Under the pieces are notes generated by a model. It did not search any database. It saw nothing but the letters and a program-made list of their open reading frames with translations, and was not told where the DNA came from. The position numbers were made by a program, and so were the translations under genes. A stretch of DNA of 64,000 bases from Negativicoccus massiliensis (GTDB taxonomy: Bacteria; Bacillota; Negativicutes; Veillonellales; Negativicoccaceae), in NCBI GenBank assembly GCA_900155405.1, contig LT700188.1, forward strand, positions 1 through 64,000. Direction: 5' to 3'. Below are positions 1,658 through 34,443 of the stretch, piece after piece (the first letter of the stretch is position 1; each line of letters begins with the position of its first letter).

Positions 1658-2299
1658 ATGTCGAAAGCTATTTTGGGAAAAAAGTTAGGAATGACGCAAG
1701 TCTTCACTGAAGCAGGACAGCTCGTTCCGGTGACCGTTGTCGAAGCGACACCGAGCGTTGTTGTACGCGTAAAAACGGATGAAACCGATGGCTACCAGGC
1801 GATTCAGCTGGGCTACGGCGACATCAAGGAAAAACATTTGACCAAACCGATGCAGGGTCAGTTTGACAAAGCGGGCGTTACCCCGGTCAAATATCTCCGT
1901 GAACTGCGTTTACAAGAAGCAGGCGATTACACGGTCGGCCAAACTCTGGCGGCGGATATATTCGCAGCGGGAGAACTGGTGGACGTGATTGGTACCAGCA
2001 AAGGCAAAGGCTTCGCTGGCGGCATCAAACGCCATAACTTTTCGCGTGGACCGGAATCTCACGGCTCCAAATCGCACCGCGAACCGGGTTCTATGGGAGC
2101 CATGACATCCGGTGGCGGCGGTATTGTATTAAAAGGTAAAAAACTCCCGGGACAAATGGGCGGTATTCAAACGACTGTGCAGCGTCTGGAAGTGGTCCGT
2201 GTGGACACCGATCGCAATATCATCCTGATCAAAGGCGGTATCCCCGGAGCCAAGGGAAGTTTAGTTATGGTTCGCAGCACAGTGAAACCGAACAAATAA
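1658..2299 (+). CDS. rplC: 50S ribosomal protein L3
   Basis: Primary 23S rRNA binder near the peptidyl-transferase centre. The 213 residues start [16 protein letters not shown], the typical L3 opening, and include the long basic loop rich in Gly/His/Ser (about residues 125-160) that reaches towards the catalytic centre. AAAGGAGGTG gives a strong ribosome binding site. Second gene of the S10 block. Confidence 0.97.
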
Positions 2300-2320
2300 G
2301 TCGGAAGGGAGGATATATAA

Positions 2321-2944
2321 ATGCCGAAAGTAACACTCTATGAAATGACCGGCGCGAAAGCCGGCGAAATAGAATTGCAGGACAGCGTATTTGCTGTGGA
2401 TTACAACGAAGCGGTAATCCATGCGGCGATCGTACGCCAGCAGGCGAATGAACGCTTAGGTACGCACGCGACAAAAACGCGCGGCATGGTTCGCGGCGGC
2501 GGTAAAAAACCGTGGCGTCAAAAAGGAACCGGCCGGGCACGTGTAGGTAGCATCCGTTCCCCGTTGTGGGTCGGCGGCGGTACCATCTTCGGACCGCAAC
2601 CGCGCAGCTATGTGAAAGCGATGCCGCGAAAACAAAGACGGTTGGCGATCAAATCTGCGTTGAGCTACAAAATCGCTAACGATGACGTATTTGTTATCAA
2701 TCAGATCGAATTAGCGCAGCCGAAAACAAAAGAAGTATTGAACCTGCTCAATAACTTTGAAATCGGCAACGATAAAGCGCTCATCATTACGGAGGGGGAC
2801 GCCATTTTAGAACGTTGCGCACGCAACATTCAAGGCGTCAAGGCGATGCCTGTCACCGCACTCAATATCTATGATATCGTGCATTACACTAAACTCTTCA
2901 TCACCGAGGGCGCTGTCAAACAGCTCGAGGAGGTGCTGGCATAA
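2321..2944 (+). CDS. rplD: 50S ribosomal protein L4
   Basis: Large-subunit protein lining the exit tunnel. The 207 residues include the conserved extended loop, with [20 protein letters not shown]-like sequence around residues 50-70 that contacts 23S rRNA and the macrolide site. Its TAA stop shares one base with the rplW ATG, indicating translational coupling. In some bacteria L4 autoregulates the S10 operon. Confidence 0.97.
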
Positions 2945-3228
2945 TGGATGCACGCGATATTTTAATCAAACCGATTGTTACGGAAAAATCTACGGCATTA
3001 ATGGCGGAAGGTAAATACACCTTCAAAGTGCCTCTCAATGCCAACAAATACCAGATCCGTGATGCAGTCGAAGAAATCTTCAATGTGAAAGTCGCCGCGG
3101 TAAGCACCATGCGCATGGAAGGCAAGAAAAAACGCATGGGCCGTTTCGAAGGTAAGCGCAGCGATTGGAAAAAAGCAATCGTCACGCTTAAAGAAGGCGA
3201 AACGATCGAATTGTTCGAAGGCGTGTAA
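2944..3228 (+). CDS. rplW: 50S ribosomal protein L23
   Basis: Tunnel-exit protein that docks trigger factor and SRP. 94 residues, beginning [17 protein letters not shown] with the family's IxxPxxTEKS motif. It overlaps the end of rplD by one base and lacks its own strong ribosome binding site, so it is probably translated by re-initiation. Confidence 0.96.
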
Positions 3229-3253
3229 GCGTCTGATTTAAGGAGGCACTATA

Positions 3254-4081
3254 ATGGCTTACAAATCATTCAAACCGTACACCCCCGGGCGTCGGTTTAT
3301 GACCGTATCGGCCTTCGACGGAGTCACCAAAGCGGAACCGGAAAAATCGCTTCTGGCGCCGGTGACCAGAAAAGGCGGCCGAAACAATACGGGAAAAATG
3401 ACCGTTCGCCATCAGGGCGGCGGCCATAAACGTCGGTATCGTTTGATTGACTTCAAACGCACGAAAGACAATGTACCGGCAAAAGTTGCGGCGATCGAAT
3501 ACGATCCGAACCGCACCTGCTTCATCGCTCTGTTGAACTATGCGGACGGTGAAAAACGTTACATCTTGGCGCCGCAGGGCTTGAAAGTCGGCGACATGGT
3601 GGAAAGCGGACCGGAATCCGATATTAAAGTGGGCAACGCATTGCCGTTGGTGAATATCCCGATCGGTACCCAGGTCCATAATGTGGAACTGAAAATCGGC
3701 AAAGGCGGCCAAATGGTCCGCAGCGCCGGCGCCTCGGCTCAGCTGATGGCGAAAGAAGGTAAATACGCGTTGTTGCGTCTGCCGAGCGGCGAAGTTCGTC
3801 GTGTCTTGGTAAACTGCCGCGCGACCGTCGGTGTCGTAGGCAATGCCGAACACGAAAACATCACCATCGGTAAAGCCGGCCGTAATCGTTGGTTGGGCAA
3901 ACGCCCGGCAAACCGCGGCGTTGTCATGAACCCGAACGACCATCCGCATGGCGGTGGTGAAGGTAAGTCCCCGGTCGGACGTAAACGTCCGGTTACTCCG
4001 TGGGGTAAGCCGGCTTACGGCGTGAAGACGCGTAATAAGAAAAAAGCATCCAATCGGATGATCGTCAATCGACGCAAGTAA
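3254..4081 (+). CDS. rplB: 50S ribosomal protein L2
   Basis: One of the most conserved ribosomal proteins, needed for subunit association and peptidyl transfer. 275 residues, as expected. The C-terminal signature around [17 protein letters not shown] (about residues 224-240) includes the His essential in the family. The ribosome binding site is AAGGAGGC. Confidence 0.97.
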
Positions 4082-22802: not shown

Positions 22803-23127
22803 TTTCATTACTGACAATATAAATTATGACAAGGAGCATAGGTCAAGATCAGCATTAGCTGCTACCATTACTCATAAAGGAACTTGCACTGCCTTAGCCC
22901 AATTATTCCTAATTTTAGGAAAAGCCATCGGATTAAAGGTCGGTTGTATCAACAGCAAGATATTAAAACAGAGGTGGAATTATGTCATCATTGGAAACAC
23001 CACTTATTACATTGATGAAACCTTCAATGTGACAAATAATAAATCTAAAAAGCTATTCTTTCAAACAACGCGAATCCATTTAGAAAAAGCACCCGACCAA
23101 GAAATTGTAGTGCCTCATATTAAGTAA
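22741..23127 (+). CDS. Short transglutaminase-like protein
   Basis: 128 residues. HKGTCTALAQLFLILGKAIG (Cys near residue 49) resembles the catalytic Cys helix of transglutaminase-like folds, and YYIDETF may supply the Asp. The expected His before the WN pair is replaced (QRWNYV), so activity is doubtful. No signal peptide; the N-terminus abuts the hsdM remnant and may be truncated. A strong terminator follows. Confidence 0.5.
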   Translation: MNIKEQTKGLTELEKLEYLHNFITDNINYDKEHRSRSALAATITHKGTCTALAQLFLILGKAIGLKVGCINSKILKQRWNYVIIGNTTYYIDETFNVTNNKSKKLFFQTTRIHLEKAPDQEIVVPHIK

Positions 23128-23128
23128 A

Positions 23129-23163
23129 AGAAACCCCAGATCTTATTCTGGGGTTTCTTTTAC
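23129..23163 (+). terminator. Rho-independent terminator
   Basis: Stem AGAAACCCCAGA / TCTGGGGTTTCT with a short loop and T-rich tail, immediately after the transglutaminase-like gene. Confidence 0.85.
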
Positions 23164-23242
23164 GAATAACATAAAGTTATGTAACTTATTGTATGTAGAC
23201 TTATTGAATGAACTATTTTATTCTAGAGATAGGAGTGCAAAT

Positions 23243-23494
23243 ATGGATATTAGAAAAATTTTTGCTAGCAATGTTAGAAAATATAGGTTAAAAAAGGAAT
23301 TATCTCAAGAGCAATTAGCTCATATAACAGGTCTTCATAGGACCTATATAAGCGATATTGAGCGTTGTATACGAAGTATATCTTTAGATAATATACAAAA
23401 AATTGCAAATGGGTTAGATGTTCCAATTTATAAGTTATTTATTTCTGAGGCGTGTGATATTAAATGGGCAGGAGAAAACCATACAGTAAGGTAA
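23243..23494 (+). CDS. XRE/controller-like regulator of the R-M island
   Basis: 83 residues, nearly all HTH: FASNVRKYRLKKELSQEQLAHITGLHRTYISDIE. Size and position (overlapping the nuclease gene by 31 nt, AGGAG 7 nt before the ATG) match restriction controller (C) proteins, which delay nuclease expression until methylation is established. Confidence 0.75.
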   Translation: MDIRKIFASNVRKYRLKKELSQEQLAHITGLHRTYISDIERCIRSISLDNIQKIANGLDVPIYKLFISEACDIKWAGENHTVR

Positions 23495-24480
23495 ACAAGA
23501 AAAACGAAATTAGAGCCGAGCATGTAAGAGGTATGGGAGATGTTGTTTGGCGACAATTTCAATGCTTGAATCCTGAATGTACTGAAATAATTACAGTACC
23601 TGATGATTCTATAGTTGATGATTTTGAAATTACATGCCCTAAGTGCGGTTATAAATTAATTGATGGCGATTCTACCAAGTTTTATGATTATACAATGGAT
23701 GTAAAAGATCCTGAAACAGGAGAAGTAAACACTGTGTCAGAGGGGGAATTTATAATTTCTCATAGAGAGTATCTAGAATCTGCACAAAAGGTTAAGTATT
23801 GTTTAGTATGTAATACCATAAAACCATTAGATTATTTTGATAAACATTCTGCGAGAAAGTCAGGCCGACAAGGTGAGTGCAGAATGTGCAAGCAAATTTA
23901 CAACTCTATTAAAAATGGTACTAGGCTTACAGACCAGCACCGAGAATCAGCTCAGAGAAGAAGGCTTTTATTAGATGTGGCTGGAAATAGCAAAATAGAT
24001 AGTGCTAAAGTTGAAGAAAGATTTGAGCATAGATGTTTTAATTGCAACAAGGATTTGTCTGGAGTTACTGATGCAAGGGAAAAGCCACTAGATCATACCT
24101 TACCTGTTTATTACTTATATCCAATATCTACTGAAAATGCTACTTTGCTATGTAGGGATTGTAATGGAAGTAAGTCTGGAGCATGGCCATCAGATTTTTA
24201 TCCAGATCAAAAACTTAGAAAACTTTCCTTGGTTACAGGGATTGAGTATTCACTACTTAAGGGAGAGCCAAAGTACAATCAAGTGGCCTTAGATTGGCTA
24301 TCTGAAAAAGGAAATGTTGATGGGCTAATAGTTAAATACTCAGCTTATATGCCAGAGGTAATAGCTTTAAGAAATAGAATTCTCAAAGCTACAGAAATTG
24401 ATTTCTTTAGCTACTCAGAGAAAATATCTAAAGTATGGATTGATAAAGCAAATGAATTACTAAAAAAAACCAATGATTGA
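23464..24480 (+). CDS. HNH restriction endonuclease (predicted)
   Basis: 338 residues. Zinc ribbons: C34/C39/C58/C61 and C113/C116/C139/C142. An HNH core near 191-238 has CFNC, LDHT (H211 as the general base candidate), ENATLLCRDCN and a GSKSG tail. It overlaps the controller-like HTH gene and converges on two DNA methyltransferases, so a type II (possibly type IIS) nuclease is the natural reading. The cut site cannot be inferred. Confidence 0.75.
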   Translation: MGRRKPYSKVNKKNEIRAEHVRGMGDVVWRQFQCLNPECTEIITVPDDSIVDDFEITCPKCGYKLIDGDSTKFYDYTMDVKDPETGEVNTVSEGEFIISHREYLESAQKVKYCLVCNTIKPLDYFDKHSARKSGRQGECRMCKQIYNSIKNGTRLTDQHRESAQRRRLLLDVAGNSKIDSAKVEERFEHRCFNCNKDLSGVTDAREKPLDHTLPVYYLYPISTENATLLCRDCNGSKSGAWPSDFYPDQKLRKLSLVTGIEYSLLKGEPKYNQVALDWLSEKGNVDGLIVKYSAYMPEVIALRNRILKATEIDFFSYSEKISKVWIDKANELLKKTND

Positions 24481-24502: not shown

Positions 24503-25657
24503 TTATACATTATTTTTTTTTATTAAAAACAAATATTGGTGGTCTGAAGTGCCTCCCTTGTCTTTTATTCCGTGCTTTTCAAGATGAGAGACGGATTCGC
24601 TGCCTAAATAAATAACATCAAACCATGGTCGACATAGTTTTGATAATTCTTCACCCATATTCACTTTAGAGGTCTTTCCTAAATGAAGTATCATCTTACC
24701 GCCATCTTTTAAAAGTGCGTGGCCAACATTAAAGAAATTTTTATAGACATCCAGGGTGCTTCTTTGTTTTATTTCTAAGAATCGATCATTCACATTTTGA
24801 AAATCAGATCTTTCCCATCCAGATAGCCATAATCTCAACCAATTTTGAGAATAGAATTTAATTGAATTAGAAAATGGAGGTGATGTAATTATGGCATTAA
24901 CGCTATCTTTTGGAATAACTGATAAAAGATCATTGTAGTCTAAGTTATAAGTGGATCCGATAACAAAATTCTCTCTTTCATAATCTAGGTATTTATCAGA
25001 CTTATTATAAGATAAATATACCTTGTTTCTTATATGCTCAATTACGTTCTTATACAAGTATGCACCTTTTGGCGCGTATGGAGTTAATGGATGTGAATTT
25101 CTGGATAAAGCATAGGGCCTATTTCCGTGTAATATATGAGCGAAACACGAAAATATAAAAGCATCTACATTGCCTTTAGTTTCTAAACTTTTAAAATATT
25201 CTCTAACTATTAAAATCTCTTTCAAGGTGTCTTCGTGGTAATAGTCTTTTATTTTACCATTTAGTCCAAAATCTATATCAGCGTCGAACTGTTTAAATTT
25301 ATTGTCGGTAATAAAGCTCTCTAGTTCCACTAATTTCTTTTCTACATCTTCTATATTAGGTGGATTTAGCTTAGCTGTGGTAACAGTATAGGCTAGTTCG
25401 CTTAAATCATTTCCAATAGAGTTTCTTCCTTGTAAAGAGGCTTCAAAAGGAATGGTTCCAACACCACAAAGTGGATCCAGCACAAGATCACCGGGCTTTG
25501 TAAATTCTTTTATTAATATAGCTGCAATTGCTGGTTTAAGCTTCCCGTGGTAAGAGCATAAAGAATGCCAAGGGTGTCCCCAGTTTCTCTTTGAGTAAGG
25601 TTGTTCTTTATATTTTGGATTTTTCAAAAAGGAACTAGCATTTGATTTATAACTCAT
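24503..25657 (-). CDS. DNA amino-methyltransferase (TSPPF)
   Basis: 384 residues. AdoMet-binding motif I-like DPLCGVG at residues 61-67 and catalytic motif IV TSPPF at 258-262, typical of N4-cytosine or N6-adenine methyltransferases. It starts within the last 11 nt of the other methyltransferase gene, so the two are translationally coupled. Two enzymes for one nuclease suggests an asymmetric target, each strand being methylated by one enzyme (inference). Confidence 0.85.
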   Translation of the reverse strand: MSYKSNASSFLKNPKYKEQPYSKRNWGHPWHSLCSYHGKLKPAIAAILIKEFTKPGDLVLDPLCGVGTIPFEASLQGRNSIGNDLSELAYTVTTAKLNPPNIEDVEKKLVELESFITDNKFKQFDADIDFGLNGKIKDYYHEDTLKEILIVREYFKSLETKGNVDAFIFSCFAHILHGNRPYALSRNSHPLTPYAPKGAYLYKNVIEHIRNKVYLSYNKSDKYLDYERENFVIGSTYNLDYNDLLSVIPKDSVNAIITSPPFSNSIKFYSQNWLRLWLSGWERSDFQNVNDRFLEIKQRSTLDVYKNFFNVGHALLKDGGKMILHLGKTSKVNMGEELSKLCRPWFDVIYLGSESVSHLEKHGIKDKGGTSDHQYLFLIKKNNV

Positions 25658-27068
25658 GGACTTTTTCCTTTCTAGACTGAAACCTTAGTACTCTTTGAGT
25701 TAGAGAAAAGCCATTTTTAGAAGTTCTTGATCTCAAAATGGTTTCGTCGTACTTATCAAAACCAGCGTTATAAGCTAGTTTTTCAAGAATATCGTGAGTT
25801 GGTATGTGAACTCCAGCAAACTGAGAATCCCCAATATCTATTATCATTTTTCCTTTAGGCACTATGACACGATACATGGCTTTAAAGAAGTCGTTCATAT
25901 CATAAAAGTAATTTGATATCATTAGTGGTATTCGCCTATCATAGGCAACTGGCAATAATTCTTCATAATATGTCTTAACATCGTCGAGGATAATGTCAGT
26001 GATATTATCGCTTGTTACACCATTAATTCCTGCAACTATTCCTTTGGCATGCATTTGGGCTAATTCGCTTTCATAGTTAATAAAATCTAGAAGCTTTAAT
26101 TCAAGTTTGGTGTTCCTGAAATAGTTAGTTCCGTTTAGATAAGGAGGCGATGTAATTACAGCGTCAACTAGATTTTTTTCCTTAATTTCTCTAGCATCAT
26201 CGCACAACTTAGTTACGGGAACAATAGTTTTGCTGCTATAAATCTCTATATCTTCTATCATGTTTTCTATTTTATTTGATATAGAGATAATGAAGTTATT
26301 ACTACTTTTTTGTATTTCCTTGCCTTTAGCAAATCTTAAATCTCCACGTCTAACCATTTTTGAGGTATCCACAGCAACCGAGGCTAGTGCTACCATCATT
26401 ATATTCCTAATGTCCTTGTCTTCAATCTGGCTAACTAGGTTTTTGTATAGAATAATGTTTTGAAGATTGGAGTTTTCAAAATATTTTTCAAATCCTTGAA
26501 AGTCAACACTTTTATCATATAATTTGTTATTTTTTATTATTGTAATTACTTCATTGTAGTGTTTATTTAATAAAGGCAATTTATTATTGGATAAAACACT
26601 TGCTACAGTGTTAATCTTCCCTTCTGCTATAAAAGACATAGCTGGGTTAACTTCAGTATAATAAGACCTTATGCCTCTTGAGCATGCAACTAACATTGTT
26701 GTTCCTGATCCACCAAATGGATCTAAAATGGAACTTATGTCTCCAAGTAAATCCAATTCATTCTTAACAAATGATTTAGAATAGCCTTCTATGTAAGAAA
26801 ACCACCTATGAATTGCCTCACCTTTGTTAAGTTGGAATGTTCCAACTTTCTTATTTTTTTTATAAGAGTCAATATTGTGCTCAACAATTTCTTCAATATC
26901 GCAGTTAAAGTATGAACATAACTTATCTAATGTATCCATACTAACATTTTTATCTTTACTGAGATTTGATAGAGTTGTAGGAGATAATGAAAGCTCAGAA
27001 ACCAAATCTGTTTTTTTCATACCATTATCAATTAGTTTTTTCCAAAGTCTAGAATAATTAAAACCCAT
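25647..27068 (-). CDS. DNA amino-methyltransferase with N-terminal HTH
   Basis: 473 residues. Residues about 1-65 form an XRE-type helix-turn-helix (KKTDLVSELSLSPTTLSNLSK), followed by a methyltransferase with DPFGGSGTT at 116-124 and TSPPY at 306-310. The start at 27068 has AAGGA 9 nt upstream; a longer start at 27077 would abut that site. The HTH fusion and the perfect inverted repeat over its promoter suggest autoregulation. The same HTH type occurs as a separate gene at 47501. Confidence 0.85.
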   Translation of the reverse strand: MGFNYSRLWKKLIDNGMKKTDLVSELSLSPTTLSNLSKDKNVSMDTLDKLCSYFNCDIEEIVEHNIDSYKKNKKVGTFQLNKGEAIHRWFSYIEGYSKSFVKNELDLLGDISSILDPFGGSGTTMLVACSRGIRSYYTEVNPAMSFIAEGKINTVASVLSNNKLPLLNKHYNEVITIIKNNKLYDKSVDFQGFEKYFENSNLQNIILYKNLVSQIEDKDIRNIMMVALASVAVDTSKMVRRGDLRFAKGKEIQKSSNNFIISISNKIENMIEDIEIYSSKTIVPVTKLCDDAREIKEKNLVDAVITSPPYLNGTNYFRNTKLELKLLDFINYESELAQMHAKGIVAGINGVTSDNITDIILDDVKTYYEELLPVAYDRRIPLMISNYFYDMNDFFKAMYRVIVPKGKMIIDIGDSQFAGVHIPTHDILEKLAYNAGFDKYDETILRSRTSKNGFSLTQRVLRFQSRKEKVHEL

Positions 27069-27081
27069 ATCACACATCCTT

Positions 27082-27129
27082 ATTACTGTTTTATATAAGT
27101 ATTATACATAAAACAGTAATTCTTTTCAA
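27082..27129 (-). promoter_or_regulatory. Methyltransferase promoter overlapped by a perfect 13-bp inverted repeat
   Basis: On the minus strand TTGAAA (27124-27129) and TATAAT (27101-27106) are separated by exactly 17 nt. The arms ATTACTGTTTTAT (27082-27094) and ATAAAACAGTAAT (27108-27120) flank the -10 box. A dimeric HTH bound here would block the promoter. Confidence 0.75.
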
Positions 27130-27263: not shown

Positions 27264-27860
27264 ATGCTTTCCCAAGAAAGACAAAAACTTGCGGGGAGCC
27301 TGCTTTACGGCATTCAGACTGGCAAGATTGATCTGGATCCAAATAAAACTTTTAACGATTATATCAATGAGATGCTTGGTAAACTTGAAAACAGAAAAAT
27401 AAAAAGAGTCGTTAAAAATCTTGGTTGCTCTGAAGAGCTTTTACGAGAGCTATTCCGGAAAGGAGTTACTGAGACTAATATTTCTGAATATGGAGTCTTC
27501 GATGAATTGAAAGAAAGCTGTGATCGAGAGAAGTCACGGGAATTTTTCGAGGCAGAACATGGAGAAAGCTATTCTGATAGTTATCTGTCTATGTACATAG
27601 ATAAATATTTGCGGTATTTTCTTTTGCATAACGGAGAGGATCAGTTTGTTGAAATAGACCATGAAGAAGTCCTCAATGAGGAATATAAAACGAAAGAGTA
27701 CAAGCAAATCGATGTTATTCTGACTGAGGAAGACATAAAGGATACAAAAATTGTAACTACGGTTCCCACTGCGCAACTAAGCGTATGGTATAAAGAAGGC
27801 GGTGCCTTGGCATCGATCATTGAGAGCGATGCGTTTGCTTATGTTGATGGTCATTTATGA
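27264..27860 (+). pseudogene. 3' remnant of type I restriction gene hsdR, fused to a second reading frame
   Basis: The first about 110 codons read like the HsdR C-terminal region: LLYGIQTGKIDLDPNKTFNDYI, IKRVVKNLGCSEELLRELF, then FDELKESCDREKSREFFE and DKYLRYFLL. No ATPase or nuclease domain remains. The last about 75 codons are not HsdR-like and run in frame, across a single TGA, into the next entry. With the hsdM start at 22665 it brackets the newer R-M system. Confidence 0.65.
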
Positions 27861-27878
27861 CTGAATAAAGATACTTAC

Positions 27879-28481
27879 TTGGAAAAGAAAGCATCCGGTG
27901 TCCTTGCGCTAACGGATTATGCGAAAGAACATGGAGAAGAGTGTTTCTTAAAGTTTATTACAGACGAAGATGGAAAGCTTAAATATGTGACTTTACCGTC
28001 CGCTCTGGGATCTAAATCGTTTAACTGTCATGACCATATACCGGAAGAGCTATTGGTCCAATACGGCTTAGTAAATGAGATGTCCGGTGAAATGTTAAAA
28101 GCTATAAATAATCTTGCGTTTGGAGAAGCACTACAAAAATTAATGAGTAAACAAGTATGCAACTATTCATTTAGGCTTTTAGAAAATACCACGGAGTTAA
28201 GCAAGTTAACTATTAGCAACATGAGGAGAGGTGTAAACTTAAACAAGCTCAATGTAATATCGGCTTGCTTGGGAGTCCATCTGCCGTCACGAGTATCTAA
28301 AAAAATGCTGGAATTAGCGGGGATTACTCTTGATGTGGATTTGCCGGGGAAAGAAGGAGTGGAGAATGCCACTTACGATATGCTGCTTCATCTTAAATGG
28401 GCAACTGATTATGACGATATTATAGAAGAGCTGGCATCGCAAAATTTAAATCACCTTTTAAGCAAGCCAAAATCAAATTAA
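27879..28481 (+). pseudogene. HTH-type accessory protein interrupted by in-frame TGA
   Basis: 200 codons from a TTG, in the same frame as the preceding open frame and separated only by TGA at 27858-27860 and five codons. The central SKLTISNMRRGVNLNKLNVISACLGVHLPSRVSKKMLELAG segment resembles the HTH part of large XRE-like proteins in Firmicute mobile elements. There is no good ribosome binding site for an independent start, so a nonsense mutation in one longer gene is likely; recoding cannot be excluded. Confidence 0.5.
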
Positions 28482-28684: not shown

Positions 28685-29491
28685 ATGAAAAATATTATTT
28701 TGGATCGTCTGCGAGATGAAAAGAATTCCGGTATTTCCGGCGGATTGTACGAATACACTAAAGTTTGGCTGACATATACTTCCAATACGATTGAGGGCAG
28801 CACGGTCAGCTTGGAGGATACCCACGCTATTTTAACCACCGGACGATTGAACGGCAAAGACTATCCGAAACTGAATGACGCGATTCAAACGCGTAATCAC
28901 GGCATAGCATTCGATTACATACTGGATATCGCGGAGCAAACGCTCACGGAAGAACAGATAAAGCATTTTCACCACCTGCTGTTTTGGGGAACAGAGGAAG
29001 CGATGAAAACTTGGTTCGCCGTCGGTGAATATAAAAAAGAAGCCAATCGGATCGGCCTGCTGACCGAAACATCTTCGCCGGAAGAAACGCCGGAGCATAT
29101 GAAAACATGGTTGCATGACTGTCAGAGTGAAAAGAATCCGCAACTGAAAGAAATCGCTCTGGCGCATTACGGTTTTGAAACCATTCATCCGTTTCAAGAC
29201 GGCAACGGTCGTGTCGGTCGCTTGCTTATGTTCAAAGAATGTTTGCACCACAACATCCCGCCGCTTATTATTACCCCGGAAATAAAACCGTGGTATATGA
29301 CCGCGCTCAATGAGTGTCGGCAAGGATTATATAATCGTTTATTTGAAACTTGTGGCAAAGCGCAAGACGATTATCAGTTGATTTGCGCTCAATTCATAAA
29401 AGAGTATTCTTTACCAAAGGAATTAGAAAAATATCTATCGACTAGCAAAATCACAATTACCAAATCCATTGATAGAGGCTTAGAGCGATGA
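28685..29491 (+). CDS. Fic-domain AMP-transferase-like toxin (N-terminal inhibitory helix)
   Basis: 268 residues. The Fic core motif HPFQDGNGRVGR spans residues 168-179 with the catalytic His first. SNTIEG at 33-38 fits the (S/T)xxxE(G/N) inhibitory motif that makes class II Fic proteins self-limiting. Fic proteins transfer AMP or related groups to target hydroxyls. It is followed by a resolvase gene with an ATGA overlap; the leader carries a probable operator. Confidence 0.85.
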   Translation: MKNIILDRLRDEKNSGISGGLYEYTKVWLTYTSNTIEGSTVSLEDTHAILTTGRLNGKDYPKLNDAIQTRNHGIAFDYILDIAEQTLTEEQIKHFHHLLFWGTEEAMKTWFAVGEYKKEANRIGLLTETSSPEETPEHMKTWLHDCQSEKNPQLKEIALAHYGFETIHPFQDGNGRVGRLLMFKECLHHNIPPLIITPEIKPWYMTALNECRQGLYNRLFETCGKAQDDYQLICAQFIKEYSLPKELEKYLSTSKITITKSIDRGLER

Positions 29492-30114
29492 AAACTTTCG
29501 GCTATGTACGAGTTTCGACAAGAGAGCAAAATCCGAAACGGCAAATTGATGAATTAAAGAAATATGTATCCGATGAACGTGATATTATTGTTGATCGGAT
29601 TAACGGTAAAGTTGGAGATCGTCCCGGACTGGATTTATTAAAGCGGCTGTTGCGCCCCGGCGATGAATTATATATTCATGAGCTGGATCGACTAGGACGA
29701 AATAAAAAAATCATCAAAGACCAACTACTTTATTTTAGAGAGAAAGAAATAACGGTTCGAGTACTTGATGTTCCGACTACTTTAATTGATTTTTCTAATT
29801 ATGGAGAATTAGGAAAATCAATTATGGATATGGTCAATAATCTGTTGATTGAGGTTTTATCTACTCTTGCGGAAACAGAAATGTTGCGCACTAAAAAAAG
29901 ACAAGCTGAAGGCATTGCCGCAGCGCGCGCCAGAGGTATAAGGCTAGGCCGCCCGAAAAAAGTATTACCGCCGGAATTTTTTCCAATATATGATCGGTGG
30001 GTAAAGAAAGAAATAACAGCAGTAGAAGCGTTTCACACCTTAGGTATTTCAAAAGATACCTTTTACCGTTGGGTCAGACAACATAAAGGAGAGGTGCAAA
30101 ATGGAGTTGGATGA
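29488..30114 (+). CDS. Serine recombinase (resolvase/invertase family)
   Basis: 208 residues. The N-terminal catalytic domain starts GYVRVSTREQNPKRQ with the nucleophile Ser in RVST, followed by ELDRLGRN and the E-helix. The C-terminal HTH (about 160-200, AVEAFHTLGISKDTFYRWV) binds res sites. It starts in the Fic stop codon, an unusual coupling of a toxin-like gene with a recombinase. Confidence 0.9.
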   Translation: MKTFGYVRVSTREQNPKRQIDELKKYVSDERDIIVDRINGKVGDRPGLDLLKRLLRPGDELYIHELDRLGRNKKIIKDQLLYFREKEITVRVLDVPTTLIDFSNYGELGKSIMDMVNNLLIEVLSTLAETEMLRTKKRQAEGIAAARARGIRLGRPKKVLPPEFFPIYDRWVKKEITAVEAFHTLGISKDTFYRWVRQHKGEVQNGVG

Positions 30115-30292
30115 AAGAACATTACCGATGGACTTACAACAAGATATTCAAAATTGGTTAGATCATCAAGACGATGAAAGAAATTGGGATGTTTATCATA
30201 ATGAGCTTTACGGCACGATTAATATGTACCAACACGCGTATGTAATCAGTGAAGAAGTCGCCGACTATTTACGCAAGAAATATTTAGAATGA
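30101..30292 (+). CDS. Small acidic protein, unknown
   Basis: 63 residues, acidic, starting inside the resolvase 3' end (14-nt overlap) with AAGGAGAGG upstream. No motif I recognise. Size, charge and position between Fic/resolvase and an MNT gene would fit an antitoxin, but that is inference. Confidence 0.55.
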   Translation: MELDERTLPMDLQQDIQNWLDHQDDERNWDVYHNELYGTINMYQHAYVISEEVADYLRKKYLE

Positions 30293-30316
30293 AACAAATG
30301 AAAAGGAGGTAGAACG

Positions 30317-30688
30317 ATGAGAACGTTAAGTCTATCTGAAATAAAAGAACGGATTATTCCCGTTTGCGAAAAGTACGATATACCGGAAGTATATATTTTC
30401 GGATCGTATGCCGACGGAACGGCCCGACCGGACAGTGATGTTGATTTAATTATTGATAGCACAAACGTACAAGGATATTTGCATTTAATTAAAATAAGAA
30501 ATTCAATGGAGGAACAGCTGGGGAAAAAAGTAGATATTGTTACGTTAAATGCATTGCGAGAACATGCGGACAAAATATTCAGTCAGGAGGTCTCCAAATT
30601 GGCAAAACCGATTTTCAAAAAGGAAGAAGATTGCGCAGGAAAAGCATTTGACGATGCGCGACATGTTCATGAGCCGGATCGGCCATGA
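30317..30688 (+). CDS. MNT-type nucleotidyltransferase
   Basis: 123 residues. FGSYADGTARPDSDVDLII (about residues 35-53) is the minimal nucleotidyltransferase signature GSxxxG...DxD. MNT proteins usually pair with HEPN RNases as antitoxins that AMPylate the toxin. No HEPN gene follows here; the C-terminal about 20 residues look foreign, so a partner may have been lost. Confidence 0.8.
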   Translation: MRTLSLSEIKERIIPVCEKYDIPEVYIFGSYADGTARPDSDVDLIIDSTNVQGYLHLIKIRNSMEEQLGKKVDIVTLNALREHADKIFSQEVSKLAKPIFKKEEDCAGKAFDDARHVHEPDRP

Positions 30689-30790
30689 TGAAATAAGCAT
30701 CAACGTAAAGGCGCGAGCGGAAAAGCGACAGTGATCTTTTCATCACGCCGCATACATACGCGAATATTTCGGTGCAAAGGAGGGGCGCAG

Positions 30791-31069
30791 ATGTTTCGAG
30801 CCTATATTCGAGAAGATATTGTTTTACCCGAACGGAAATCAAAAGAAATTCAAGAACGGGTGGATACGCTGGAACGCTTGTATATCGAATTGCAATCCAT
30901 GGATCCGCGCGCGCCGGAATACGCAAGAATGATAGAAGAGTTTGAAGACGCCAATGAATGGCTGGATATCGCCGCGAAGCTCGACGATAAAGTCGATCGC
31001 CAAGCGTATGCCGGATATTGTTTCCGTTACTATGTGGGGGTTGTGGAAGATGACGATCAAGATGAATGA
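30791..31069 (+). CDS. Small partner protein of the HipA-like kinase, copy 1
   Basis: 92 residues, acidic and helical, opening MFRAYIREDIVLPERKS. AAAGGAGGGG precedes the ATG. It overlaps the kinase gene by 20 nt. A homologue with the same opening (MLKAYIREAYPIPQN) precedes the truncated kinase at 50485, so the pair is a conserved two-gene unit. An antitoxin-like role is inferred from this. Confidence 0.6.
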   Translation: MFRAYIREDIVLPERKSKEIQERVDTLERLYIELQSMDPRAPEYARMIEEFEDANEWLDIAAKLDDKVDRQAYAGYCFRYYVGVVEDDDQDE

Positions 31070-32024
31070 TTTTACTGAAAATAAAACGATTCCCCCGCGT
31101 ACTTACGGGGGCAAAACAGGAGCAAAGTTATGCGTTTTACATCATGATGAAATATGGTTTTTAAAATTTCCGCAAACGTTATCCCGGCAAGACGCCGTAT
31201 TGTCGTATCCCACCATGCCCGTTTCGGAGTTTTTAGGATCGCAAATATATAAAAGCATTGGCATTGATACGCATGATACCGAATTGGGGATATATAAAGA
31301 TCGGTCCGTCGTTGCTTGCAAAGACTTTATCCCATCGGGTAGTAAGTTTTATGAATTTAAGGGCTTATTTAATGCCTTGCCGGCGATCAAGTCGTTACAG
31401 TCCACGCGATTTGGAAATGCGCCATCATTGCATAAGGTAGAAATATCTGACATTTTTGAGGAGATCGAAATTACCTTTGCGCCATCAACGCAAGAAAAAA
31501 TGAAGGAACGCTTTTGGGATATGTTTGTAGTTGACTGTTTTATCAACAACAAAGACCGTAATACCGGGAATTGGGGATATTTTATGAATTTGACCGGGGA
31601 ATTTGTAGGATTAGCTCCGGTGTACGATAACGGCAGTTCGTTTTTCCCGAAAGTCGATCCGCGAAAATGCGGTGAAAAAGAATTTTTTGACAGGAGTATT
31701 CGGAAAGGAAAAACTTCTTTTTTCTACCACGGAAAAGCAGTCGACAGCGTTTCGGTCATGAGGAAAGCCCCCTATCCGTTTCAAGAAGAGGCGCTTAACT
31801 CGGGTTTGCAAAAAGCTATTTTGAAAATAACGCCCCGATTATCCGCCAATATGGACGCATTTCAAAATTTGATTTCAGATATACCTTTAGATTTCAAAGG
31901 CGTTCCGATTATCTCGGAATCTCGAAAAGAGTTTTATCAAAACTTTTTATCGAAACGGCTGGAGCTTGTTTTGGAGCCGGCGTGGAAACGGGTCATGGAG
32001 ATCGCGCAAGACGAGAATGCTTGA
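31050..32024 (+). CDS. HipA/CtkA-like protein kinase
   Basis: 324 residues. Features of the HipA/CtkA atypical kinase fold: TYGGKTGAKLC (about 18-28, phosphate-binding loop), ATP-lysine candidate K39 in WFLKF, catalytic loop NNKDRNTGN with D169 and N174, and metal-binding DNG at 193-195 (VYDNGSSF). HipA phosphorylates glutamyl-tRNA synthetase; CtkA is a secreted kinase. The target here is unknown. The start at 31050 matches the paralogue at 50485. Confidence 0.75.
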   Translation: MTIKMNDFTENKTIPPRTYGGKTGAKLCVLHHDEIWFLKFPQTLSRQDAVLSYPTMPVSEFLGSQIYKSIGIDTHDTELGIYKDRSVVACKDFIPSGSKFYEFKGLFNALPAIKSLQSTRFGNAPSLHKVEISDIFEEIEITFAPSTQEKMKERFWDMFVVDCFINNKDRNTGNWGYFMNLTGEFVGLAPVYDNGSSFFPKVDPRKCGEKEFFDRSIRKGKTSFFYHGKAVDSVSVMRKAPYPFQEEALNSGLQKAILKITPRLSANMDAFQNLISDIPLDFKGVPIISESRKEFYQNFLSKRLELVLEPAWKRVMEIAQDENA

Positions 32025-32175
32025 TTTCAAGAGCTTAAAAAACTTGCTCGGCTCCGATTTATGCCGGCGGCGTTTCTCTGTATCCTCGTTTCCGCTTTTT
32101 TCGGAGGCGCTTTTGGTTATCAAATTTTTGCCGATTTCCCGTTATCATCGCTGCTCGATATGGTGTTTGATTGGT

Positions 32176-32304
32176 TTGACTAAAAGGGTCTTCGTGCTAA
32201 AATAAGGGTGCAGGATGACTGCCAGAGAGGGCGCGAGCAAGGTCGCGCATGCAAGAAAAATCTACGGAGCAGCAAAAAGGACGGGGTGCACCCCGTCCTT
32301 TTTG
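32176..32304 (+). ncRNA. Candidate small RNA, copy 1 (antisense to peptide toxin)
   Basis: Promoter TTGACT (32176-32181), 16 nt, TAAAAT (32198-32203); the RNA would end at the GC-rich hairpin AAAAGGACGGGG/CCCCGTCCTTTT with T's (about 32274-32304). The interval 32214-32249 is antisense-homologous to the small peptide gene at 34826 (29 of 36 positions). Two further promoter-hairpin units of the same design lie at 34616 and 34722. Confidence 0.45.
32210..32256 (-). pseudogene. Decayed copy of the 27-codon membrane peptide gene
   Basis: The minus strand encodes ATLLAPSLAVI, identical to the peptide at 34826-34909. All seven base differences in this stretch are synonymous. Both the start and the C-terminal codons have been lost (an upstream TAG, and a different tail). 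Confidence 0.45.
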
Positions 32305-32406
32305 CTTGCATATTTTGTTATTAATGATGGTTTCCGAACCGGCGGGATTACATTTTTGCGCGTTACAGAGTATGGCACGGATTTTATCGGGAACTTGACT
32401 TCCGCT

Positions 32407-33216
32407 TCACTTTTCTAAAAAAGAACGTATTTCCGTGACGGTTGCTTCATTAATTTCAGAAACTTCTTTTTGCTGTTCCGCTGCCAGCATCTTACGAATA
32501 AATGCTTGTTGCTGATGCAAATCCTGCGTTTCCGCTTTCGTCAACGGTCGTGACCATTCGTGATCGATGGCGGCCGTGATTTCGTCCGGATTGTTTTGGG
32601 AACGGGAAAGTTCGCCGGCGCGATTGCATACGACGATTTCGTTGAAACATTTCGTTCTCGCCAAATAGATAAGATTTCCTTTTAACAGAGAAACGACTAA
32701 ATCATGGTGTTTTTTGTCCACGGTACGGGCATTGTCTTGCTGCAATCCTTGAAACAGTCTTGTCATGGTACCGGTGAAGCTGACTTCCGGCTTCATTGCC
32801 ATGACATACAAATCGACTTCATATCCGTTCGCGCGCAAACGGTTCGCGGTTCGCTCGGGCACTTCCGTTGTCCGCAGCGTTCCTTCAATCAGCAAGTTGT
32901 ATTTTTCTTTTGCCAGCCGCTCAATTAATGCTTCCGTGATCGCGCCCGACCATTGGGCGGTGTGTTTCGGGTGATCCGATCCGTATTCTCTTTGAATTTC
33001 CGTGTAATGCGGATGCGAATCGCGAAACTCGTCAGTATTCAGAAATATAAAGTTATTATCTTTACGATTTACGAGTTTCACAATGCTGCTTTTGCCGCTC
33101 CCGGGTTGCCCGCCGGTGAGAATGGCGCGCGGGTGGACTGACGGCGTTTTGCTCCGGGTGAGTTGGTCATGATAGTATTCAATCTGTTGATTGAGTTCAA
33201 ATTTTGTGTAATTCAT
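32407..33216 (-). CDS. Zeta-toxin family kinase
   Basis: 269 residues. Zeta toxins phosphorylate UDP-N-acetylglucosamine and block cell-wall synthesis. The Walker A GGQPGSGKS spans 35-43, FLNTDEFRDSHPHY supplies the substrate-side Asp, and ALIERLAKEKYNLLIEGTLR follows as in the family. It overlaps the upstream small gene by 20 nt, within the three-gene fic / small protein / zeta operon. Confidence 0.9.
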   Translation of the reverse strand: MNYTKFELNQQIEYYHDQLTRSKTPSVHPRAILTGGQPGSGKSSIVKLVNRKDNNFIFLNTDEFRDSHPHYTEIQREYGSDHPKHTAQWSGAITEALIERLAKEKYNLLIEGTLRTTEVPERTANRLRANGYEVDLYVMAMKPEVSFTGTMTRLFQGLQQDNARTVDKKHHDLVVSLLKGNLIYLARTKCFNEIVVCNRAGELSRSQNNPDEITAAIDHEWSRPLTKAETQDLHQQQAFIRKMLAAEQQKEVSEINEATVTEIRSFLEK

Positions 33217-33478
33217 AAAGTTTATCCAAAATCTCTAACACTAAGCTTGCTTGAAATTTGATTTTCAACAGTTCTTCCAAGCTGTCCGTATGTAATGCCG
33301 TTTCACGATAGCCTTGAATTTTTTCAACAAATAATAGCAGATCATCGGGGATCGGCTTGTTTTTTTGTATCCAGTTTCGCCCGCAAAATCCGGTTACTGC
33401 GGCGATCAGCTCCACCACGACCTCACGTTCAAAAATCATCATCGACGGGCTCAGTTCAACTTTATATTCGTCCATCAT
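33197..33478 (-). CDS. Small protein between Fic and zeta, putative antitoxin
   Basis: 93 residues, helical, no recognised domain. Its ATG overlaps the Fic stop (ATGA) and its 3' end overlaps zeta by 20 nt, so all three are coupled. Position before zeta suggests an epsilon-like antitoxin, but no sequence likeness to epsilon or PezA is apparent to me. Confidence 0.6.
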   Translation of the reverse strand: MMDEYKVELSPSMMIFEREVVVELIAAVTGFCGRNWIQKNKPIPDDLLLFVEKIQGYRETALHTDSLEELLKIKFQASLVLEILDKLYELHKI

Positions 33479-34272
33479 ATTCCCCTTTCCGGAGTGCGCT
33501 CTTGTTGGACGCCCTTCTCGGCGGCCATTATATCTCGCATTTCCTGCTCATAATTTTTTCGGATGTCATACAGTAATGGAAACTCCGCGTTAAAATTTTT
33601 TTGCGCCGATTGAAACACTTCTGCCAATGGCTCAATGCTTTTTCCCACACGAGATAACTGCAAGGCGTTTCGATAAGCTTGCGCGCTTTCGCTATGAATG
33701 CAAATCGGATCTTGGTTGCATGCCAAGCATTGTTTGAGCAGTAAAAACCGACCGATGCGACCGTTGCCGTCTTGAAACGGATGAATGGTTTCAAATTCCA
33801 GATGAAACTCCGCCATATCTTGCAATGTCATTTGGCGTTCATTGTATTTTCTCAATAAATATTCCATTTTTTCCGGCACTTCATGCGGCTGCGCAACCGC
33901 GATGCGTTTGCCGGACGGTCCAATAATGACGTTGGGGATTTTTTTGAATACGCCGGCGAAACCGTGCTCGTCGTCAGTTGTATATTGCTTTAACAGTTGA
34001 TGATATTCTCTTAACTTAAATACGGTAAGAGGACTTTGATAGTCTTCCACAATATAATCGAATAAAGCCAGTGAATTTTTAGTTTCCGCAACATCATTCC
34101 ATGAATGATCACCACTGACGAAATTCTCTTTCAGCAGCGTTATTATTTCCGGCAGAGAAAAAGTGCTTCCCTCAATTTTATTGGTATGATACAGAAATTT
34201 CACTTTGAAATCGTCATATATGCCGTTGGAAGTGTTTTCCAGTACCTGCAATGTGCTCGCGATATCCAACAT
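33475..34272 (-). CDS. Fic-domain protein (class II), operon with zeta
   Basis: 265 residues from the ATG at 34272 (AAAGGA 9 nt upstream; ATG at 34278 is only 3 nt away). The inhibitory motif TNKIEG lies at 30-35 and the catalytic HPFQDGNGRIGR at 164-175. A C-terminal half copy (about 120 codons, few changes) sits at 62419-62788. A distinct Fic paralogue is at 28685. Confidence 0.85.
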   Translation of the reverse strand: MLDIASTLQVLENTSNGIYDDFKVKFLYHTNKIEGSTFSLPEIITLLKENFVSGDHSWNDVAETKNSLALFDYIVEDYQSPLTVFKLREYHQLLKQYTTDDEHGFAGVFKKIPNVIIGPSGKRIAVAQPHEVPEKMEYLLRKYNERQMTLQDMAEFHLEFETIHPFQDGNGRIGRFLLLKQCLACNQDPICIHSESAQAYRNALQLSRVGKSIEPLAEVFQSAQKNFNAEFPLLYDIRKNYEQEMRDIMAAEKGVQQERTPERGI

Positions 34273-34443
34273 TGCCATGTTCCTTTCTGCGTGTCCATGC
34301 ATCTTGTCAAGGCGGAAAATGAACTATTGCTGTTCGTATTCCTATTATACTATACGCATGCGGTTGCAGGCTTTCAGTCGTTGCCGCTTCGATCTGCAAC
34401 GACGCGCGTCGCTCGCGCTCGAGGATCGGAAAACTGTATATTG

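Follow-up and report, generated by a model that had tools for sequence, protein, structure and literature searches.

Restriction-modification (R-M) systems must methylate before cutting. In the locus studied here, one methyltransferase carries a helix-turn-helix (HTH) domain of its own and a nuclease candidate has a separate controller gene, which raises the question of whether the two halves of a single R-M unit are held under separate control. The window, that is, the whole 64-kb stretch of DNA that was analysed, contains a four-gene type II R-M unit, in which C and R are encoded on the plus strand and M1 and M2 run convergently to them on the minus strand. The features of the unit are as follows.

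23184..23209, plus strand: C-boxes, ACTTATTGTATGTAGACTTATTGAAT; the Vallitalea system L027 has the same 26-mer ahead of its C gene
23243..23494, plus strand: C, 83-aa controller protein; its gene runs into the start of R
23464..24480, plus strand: R, candidate restriction endonuclease that has Cys pairs
24503..25657, minus strand: M2, the unit's second amino-methyltransferase, with TSPPF; overlaps M1 at the 3' end of the latter
25647..27068, minus strand: M1, 473 aa; HTH_26 in residues 1-65, linker in residues 66-73, amino-methyltransferase with TSPPY
26874..27068, minus strand: N-terminal Cro/C1-type HTH domain of M1; HTH_26 match, four model helices
27082..27120, no strand: perfect 13-bp inverted repeat with a 13-nt loop; proposed M1 operator
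27101..27129, minus strand: predicted M1 promoter; -35 box TTGAAA at 27129-27124, 17-bp spacer, -10 box TATAAT at 27106-27101

R was assigned as a candidate nuclease because of where it lies and because it is conserved with R genes in related systems. By eye it is HNH-like and it gave a weak match to PtuB in PADLOC (E 0.004); a Pfam search of R returned no family above cut-off. A perfect 17-bp hairpin at 23124-23163, between a transglutaminase-like gene and C, is probably a terminator that shields the C-boxes. Beside the unit, at 27264-28481 on the plus strand, two adjoining reading frames, separated by a stop at 27860, look like one broken gene, and positions 28685-34302 hold a dense toxin and mobility neighbourhood with two Fic-domain genes, a HipA-like gene, a zeta-toxin-like gene and, by eye, a serine-recombinase-like gene at 29488.

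The initial annotation had described M1 as an amino-methyltransferase with a fused N-terminal HTH, and Pfam searches bore this out. HTH_26 matched M1 residues 1-65 submitted alone (E 1.4e-18), and the same open frame contains a methyltransferase part with a TSPPY motif that matched N6_N4_Mtase (E 1.5e-8). The C5-cytosine family PF00145 was absent among the Pfam matches of M1; by its Pfam family and TSPPY motif, M1 is not of the C5 class. The TSPPY motif presumably points to N4-C methylation. Comparison of the M1 model with known folds, considered as a pointer to the methylated base, returned general SAM-methyltransferase matches only (Trm11/Trm14, Z ~15), which do not settle between N4-C and N6-A.

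M1 most likely starts at the ATG at 27068, because AAGGA lies 8 nt upstream and its HTH relatives open with MGFSY--LW, MSFSY--LW and similar residues. Its AlphaFold model, built from a 24-row alignment, has a mean pLDDT of 90, with four helices in residues 6-54 (83-93 for this block) and values below 50 in residues 66-73; as modelled, the HTH is probably a separate domain on a flexible tether. The methyltransferase core is kept in M1 homologues that have no HTH, so that the HTH is seemingly dispensable for methylation. Another part of this genome (G000:C1:1235528) encodes a stand-alone HTH that is 55% identical to that of M1 and lacks the palindrome upstream.

The inverted repeat at the M1 promoter

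The stretch singled out by the initial annotation, 27082-27129, comprises an inverted repeat and the -35 box of the predicted M1 promoter. The repeat was confirmed as perfect, its arms ATTACTGTTTTAT (27082-27094) and ATAAAACAGTAAT (27108-27120) being exact reverse complements on either side of a 13-nt loop. When the 152 bp upstream of M1 were dinucleotide-shuffled 5000 times, a perfect 13-bp arm never arose (19 of 5000 reached 11). When the palindrome is widened to 16-nt arms and a 7-nt loop, 15 of the 16 pairs match. The -10 box lies within the loop, the right arm between the -35 and -10 boxes, and the left arm between the ribosome-binding site and an inferred transcription start near 27095. 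With such a start, the left arm would fall in the first transcribed bases and a bound protein would cover both the -10 box and the start. TTGAAA-17-TATAAT matches 11 of 12 consensus bases and ties for first place among the 24 promoter-like sites between 22700 and 27400; shuffled versions of this region contain 21.6 such sites, hardly fewer than the real sequence, so the M1 promoter is plausible but unproven.

The palindrome site is single-copy in the 1.36-Mb genome (10-bp arms, 17-nt spacer, up to three mismatches), which argues against a host regulon. Among 398 genomes from this phylum, its exact pattern was found in one, the window's own; since a reversed control pattern was likewise found in one of 398, this rarity is no evidence of function and shows only that the site does not recur. 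The window has 58 single-arm matches to ATTACTGTTTTAT with up to three mismatches, where shuffles have 37.7 and none of 100 shuffles reached 58; the surplus was attributed to uneven base composition and not to extra sites. Seven stretches of viral contigs matched TTACTGTTTT-N10-30-AAAACAGTAA. They lay inside frames or beside unrelated genes, with no HTH or methyltransferase gene seen among the reading frames within 700 bp, and were treated as chance.

HTH domains and promoter repeats among relatives

A relative of M1 was present in 94 loci, made up of 80 genome loci (the best 80 of 150), 10 viral loci and four others (L006-L009); L007 and L015 are apparently the same stretch. M2 was found in 92 of these loci and R in 80, convergent with M2 in 78. 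C was detected beside R in 15 of the 94, by tblastn with two C queries that may miss distant C genes and in loci some of which end early. Single-protein scans of viral contigs and genome contigs with M1 gave no match.

Linkage of an HTH to M1 was seen in six of the 94 loci, as a fusion in two and as a separate gene just upstream in four. The HTH resembled that of the window in five, being fused in L024 and encoded by a small overlapping or adjacent upstream gene in L018, L030, L031 and L090; the M1 of L027 has a different fused HTH (HTH_3). No other kind of HTH gene was seen by eye upstream of M1 in 12 near loci without an HTH. Judged by these sequences, the HTH is an occasional addition to the M1 family. 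On a 39-row tree of M1 the HTH-linked members were scattered, a pattern suggestive of gain, loss or exchange on repeated occasions. HTH and C occur together in the window locus, L027 and L030; no C was found in the HTH-linked loci L018, L031, L090 and L024, and in L016, the tree sister of L018, C is present and no HTH was found. In the genome of L031, an Eco47II-type endonuclease is also accompanied by an m5C methyltransferase that carries HTH_26. With HTH_26 fused in both this enzyme and M1, the HTH family has been joined to R-M methyltransferases of two classes.

Many longer M1 proteins (for example those of L036, L043, L049, L055, L065, L081 and L089) share an N-terminal domain of 95-110 residues with the pattern FKTIYF-D...LTLAF...LSSHE-RE--G... 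It gave no Pfam match above cut-off in the eight proteins tried, and its reading as a ribbon-helix-helix was dropped, the match to RHH_5 in L038 being weak and sub-threshold (E 0.012). This domain may be another DNA-binding add-on.

For each locus, the best inverted repeat within 120 bp upstream of M1 was compared with 300 dinucleotide shuffles. Among the HTH-linked promoters, the repeat of the window was equalled in 0 of 300 shuffles, and L018, L031 and L030 gave p values of 0.023, 0.017 and 0.027; L090 (p 0.30), L024 (p 0.93) and L027 (p 0.46) did not stand out. The lowest p among 15 HTH-less promoters was 0.097 (L006 and 14 of the nearest, their starts taken as the farthest possible; L010 and L022, with ambiguous starts, were dropped). 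Repeats at p<0.03 were found at four of seven HTH-linked and none of 15 HTH-less promoters (Fisher p 0.005), a line that was set after the values had been seen and a count that is not independent, since L018 and L031 are close relatives. We take this contrast as support for a link between HTH and repeat, not as proof of it.

The repeat of L030 sits immediately upstream of the -35 box, outside the promoter core, and in L018, L031 and L090 the -35 to -10 stretch upstream of the HTH gene is, by eye, conserved beyond the hexamers. The sequence of the window palindrome is common to no relative examined and occurs only in the window's own loci. The nearest HTH relative is only 55% identical and lacks such a repeat upstream. 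The palindrome was absent from the nearest HTH relatives checked (L100 and L103-L107; 41-56% identical), two or three of which carry other palindromes by eye, such as TGTAGATATTCTACA. Searches for further HTH relatives for operator footprinting gave none confirmed among 36 stretches, none in 17 genomes and one in 398, which was already known.

The controller C and its boxes

The controller-like HTH gene that had been noted beside the nuclease proved to resemble known controllers closely. Its product matched C.BclI (E 7.3e-15), C.AhdI (4.6e-10) and further R-M controller entries, as well as Control_protein in PADLOC (E 1.7e-24), and on these matches C is a genuine controller protein. The C-boxes ACTTATTGTATGTAGACTTATTGAAT are identical in 26 of 26 bp to the upstream stretch in L027 (Vallitalea), while the two C proteins are only 65% identical. 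By eye, C-box-like repeats also precede C in several relatives, for example L071, L077, L080 and L040. C and R, which overlap, form one operon, and with its boxes the C-R half of the unit is classical. The C-box 24-mer had no match in viral contigs.

At the M1 promoter of the window, neither the C-box matrix (p 0.55) nor a C dimer consensus that reportedly comes from Esp1396I work (p 0.83) scored better than in mononucleotide shuffles. The ACTTAT in the palindrome loop was also scored as a C-box, and it was not above shuffles. When 91 M1 promoters were scanned, a C-operator was present in those of L071, L077 and L080, in each case unmatched by any of 200 mononucleotide shuffles; L026 reached p 0.01, which is about chance level for 91 tries, and no C was detected in that locus. 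With the C-box matrix, L077 (p 0.004) and L071 (p 0.024) stand out, and L080 less so (p 0.106). A C-operator on M1 is present in three of 13 C-bearing relatives without an HTH, all three close kin (Moraxellaceae), and the other 10 are without the site, so that its absence from the window locus is not unusual. Some relatives appear, by their sequences, to place M under C in the manner of Esp1396I, whereas the window locus, like most, appears not to. An example of such an Esp1396I-like operator, on the likely -35 box of the M promoter in the Acinetobacter and Alkanindiges loci L071, L077 and L080, is TGTTGACTATGGGTAACA. In L071 and L080 a second pair of R-like and C-like genes directly precedes the first, an arrangement that looks like a duplication of the nuclease half or its capture on two occasions.

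Split control, its alternatives and its precedents

The DNA itself shows which parts the unit has, where they lie, that C has its C-boxes and that none is detectable at M1. From these we infer a split control that we consider likely, in which M1 would repress its own M1-M2 operon while C would independently delay R. As M1 accumulates, two HTH domains, dimerising on the DNA, would bind the two palindrome arms around the -10 box, and M1 bound there would exclude RNA polymerase and keep expression of the M1-M2 operon low and steady. On entry into a host that lacks M1, the promoter would be open and methylation would come first; C would slowly build up on the C-boxes and then switch on C-R, so that the nuclease is delayed, and C would not act on the M1 promoter of the window locus. 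Of the two independent timing circuits originally proposed, the independence stands at the sequence level, with C-boxes at C and none at M1, whereas timing is too strong a word for the M1 loop: the C circuit would be a timer, and the M1 loop a homeostat capping the level of methyltransferase. In favour of M1 autorepression, the gene that encodes the HTH is the one whose -10 box the palindrome spans; against it, the arms lie 26 bp apart from centre to centre, wider than in the usual Cro-type operator.

Within split control, the M1 HTH might repress only when its own sites are methylated, as is reported for EcoRII, likewise a fused-repressor methyltransferase, in the available part of PMC12707154. 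We regard this sub-case as improbable, and because it is nested in the preferred reading the two estimates overlap. A similarly small chance is given to a two-register unit, in which the M1 HTH would sense methylation status, with unmethylated targets titrating M1, and C would separately arm the nuclease; M1 would then return to its own promoter only once the genome was fully protected. If so, the family would have repeatedly swapped control of M among C, as in Acinetobacter and Alkanindiges, an HTH gene next door, as in Lachnospiraceae bacterium A2 and others, and a fused HTH, as in the window, Sanguibacter and Vallitalea.

The palindrome could also be the operator of another regulator, either C or a host repressor, the M1 HTH having some other role such as target binding. 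Such a reading draws on the fact that the M1 HTH is so far a predicted binder of the palindrome, and on an arm spacing that is odd for a Cro-type dimer. It is made unlikely by the M1 promoter having no C-box above shuffles, by the lack of a second genomic copy of the site with up to three mismatches, and by the HTH-less homologues, whose intact methyltransferase core suggests that the HTH is not needed for methylation.

The window contains 13 perfect repeats of at least 12 bp (loops up to 20), about one per 5 kb, whereas eight block shuffles of it gave none or one each. That the repeat is chance or an insertion leftover with no regulatory role is very doubtful: this abundance, the AT-rich region upstream of M1 (24% GC) and the broken-looking frame (stop at 27860) on the other side of the palindrome favour it, but the local shuffles, the position on the joint-best promoter of the region and the appearance of most of the 12 other repeats, which by eye resemble terminators as the M1 palindrome does not, all stand against it.

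The relatives include systems with only C, with only an HTH, with both and with neither detected; in this natural series, what each loop adds to safe host transfer could be measured within one enzyme family.

Methyltransferases with a fused repressor HTH are an accepted class in the available parts of PMC12707154 and PMC3874152, and include M.SsoII, M.Ecl18kI, M.EcoRII, M.MspI, M.ScrFIA and M1.LlaJI (PMC3978073; PMC12707154); the fused cases named in the accessible text of PMC3978073 are all C5 (m5C) enzymes. Like M.SsoII, M1 has an N-terminal HTH region, a flexible linker and a binding site in its own promoter, the latter two being predicted in the case of M1 (PMC3978073), and M.NlaX is an HTH-less natural relative of M.SsoII, comparable to the HTH-less M1 proteins described here. 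M1 differs from the m5C repressors in being of the amino (N4/N6) type, in having a second methyltransferase in its operon and in the presence of a C protein. Its proposed operator spans 39 bp with an arm spacing of 26 bp, against 15 bp in all for the SsoII site (PMC3978073). In L123 (Lachnospiraceae bacterium A2, 1939-4067), HTH_26 is likewise fused N-terminally to an R-M methyltransferase, but this enzyme is of the C5 class (PF00145, E 7.5e-82) with an Eco47II-type nuclease gene directly after it, and its upstream region offers no more than AAAACA-ca-TGTTTT close to the likely promoter and a repeat with 8-bp arms further up.

On the nuclease side, C resembles C.BclI, C.AhdI and C.Esp1396I in being a small XRE controller upstream of R and overlapping it, with GACT-type C-boxes upstream of C (PMC3758141, in part). 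C proteins that act also at the M gene are known, C.Esp1396I binding an operator at the methyltransferase gene (PMC3758141); in contrast, no C operator at the M gene was detected in the window, and three Acinetobacter and Alkanindiges relatives have one. Fusions of C with the endonuclease are also known (PMC3850674, in part).

Fused methyltransferase repressors and C proteins are thus each known, and the combination of an amino-methyltransferase, a fused HTH and a separate C seems an unusual pairing. Neither an HTH-fused amino-methyltransferase nor a C protein together with a fused methyltransferase repressor was found in the titles and abstract openings searched, a set with subscription journals mostly outside it. 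Control by a C protein, by methyltransferase activity and by methyltransferase binding to a regulatory site are listed as separate modes of R-M transcriptional control in the available text of PMC3978073, and the present unit appears to join two of these three.
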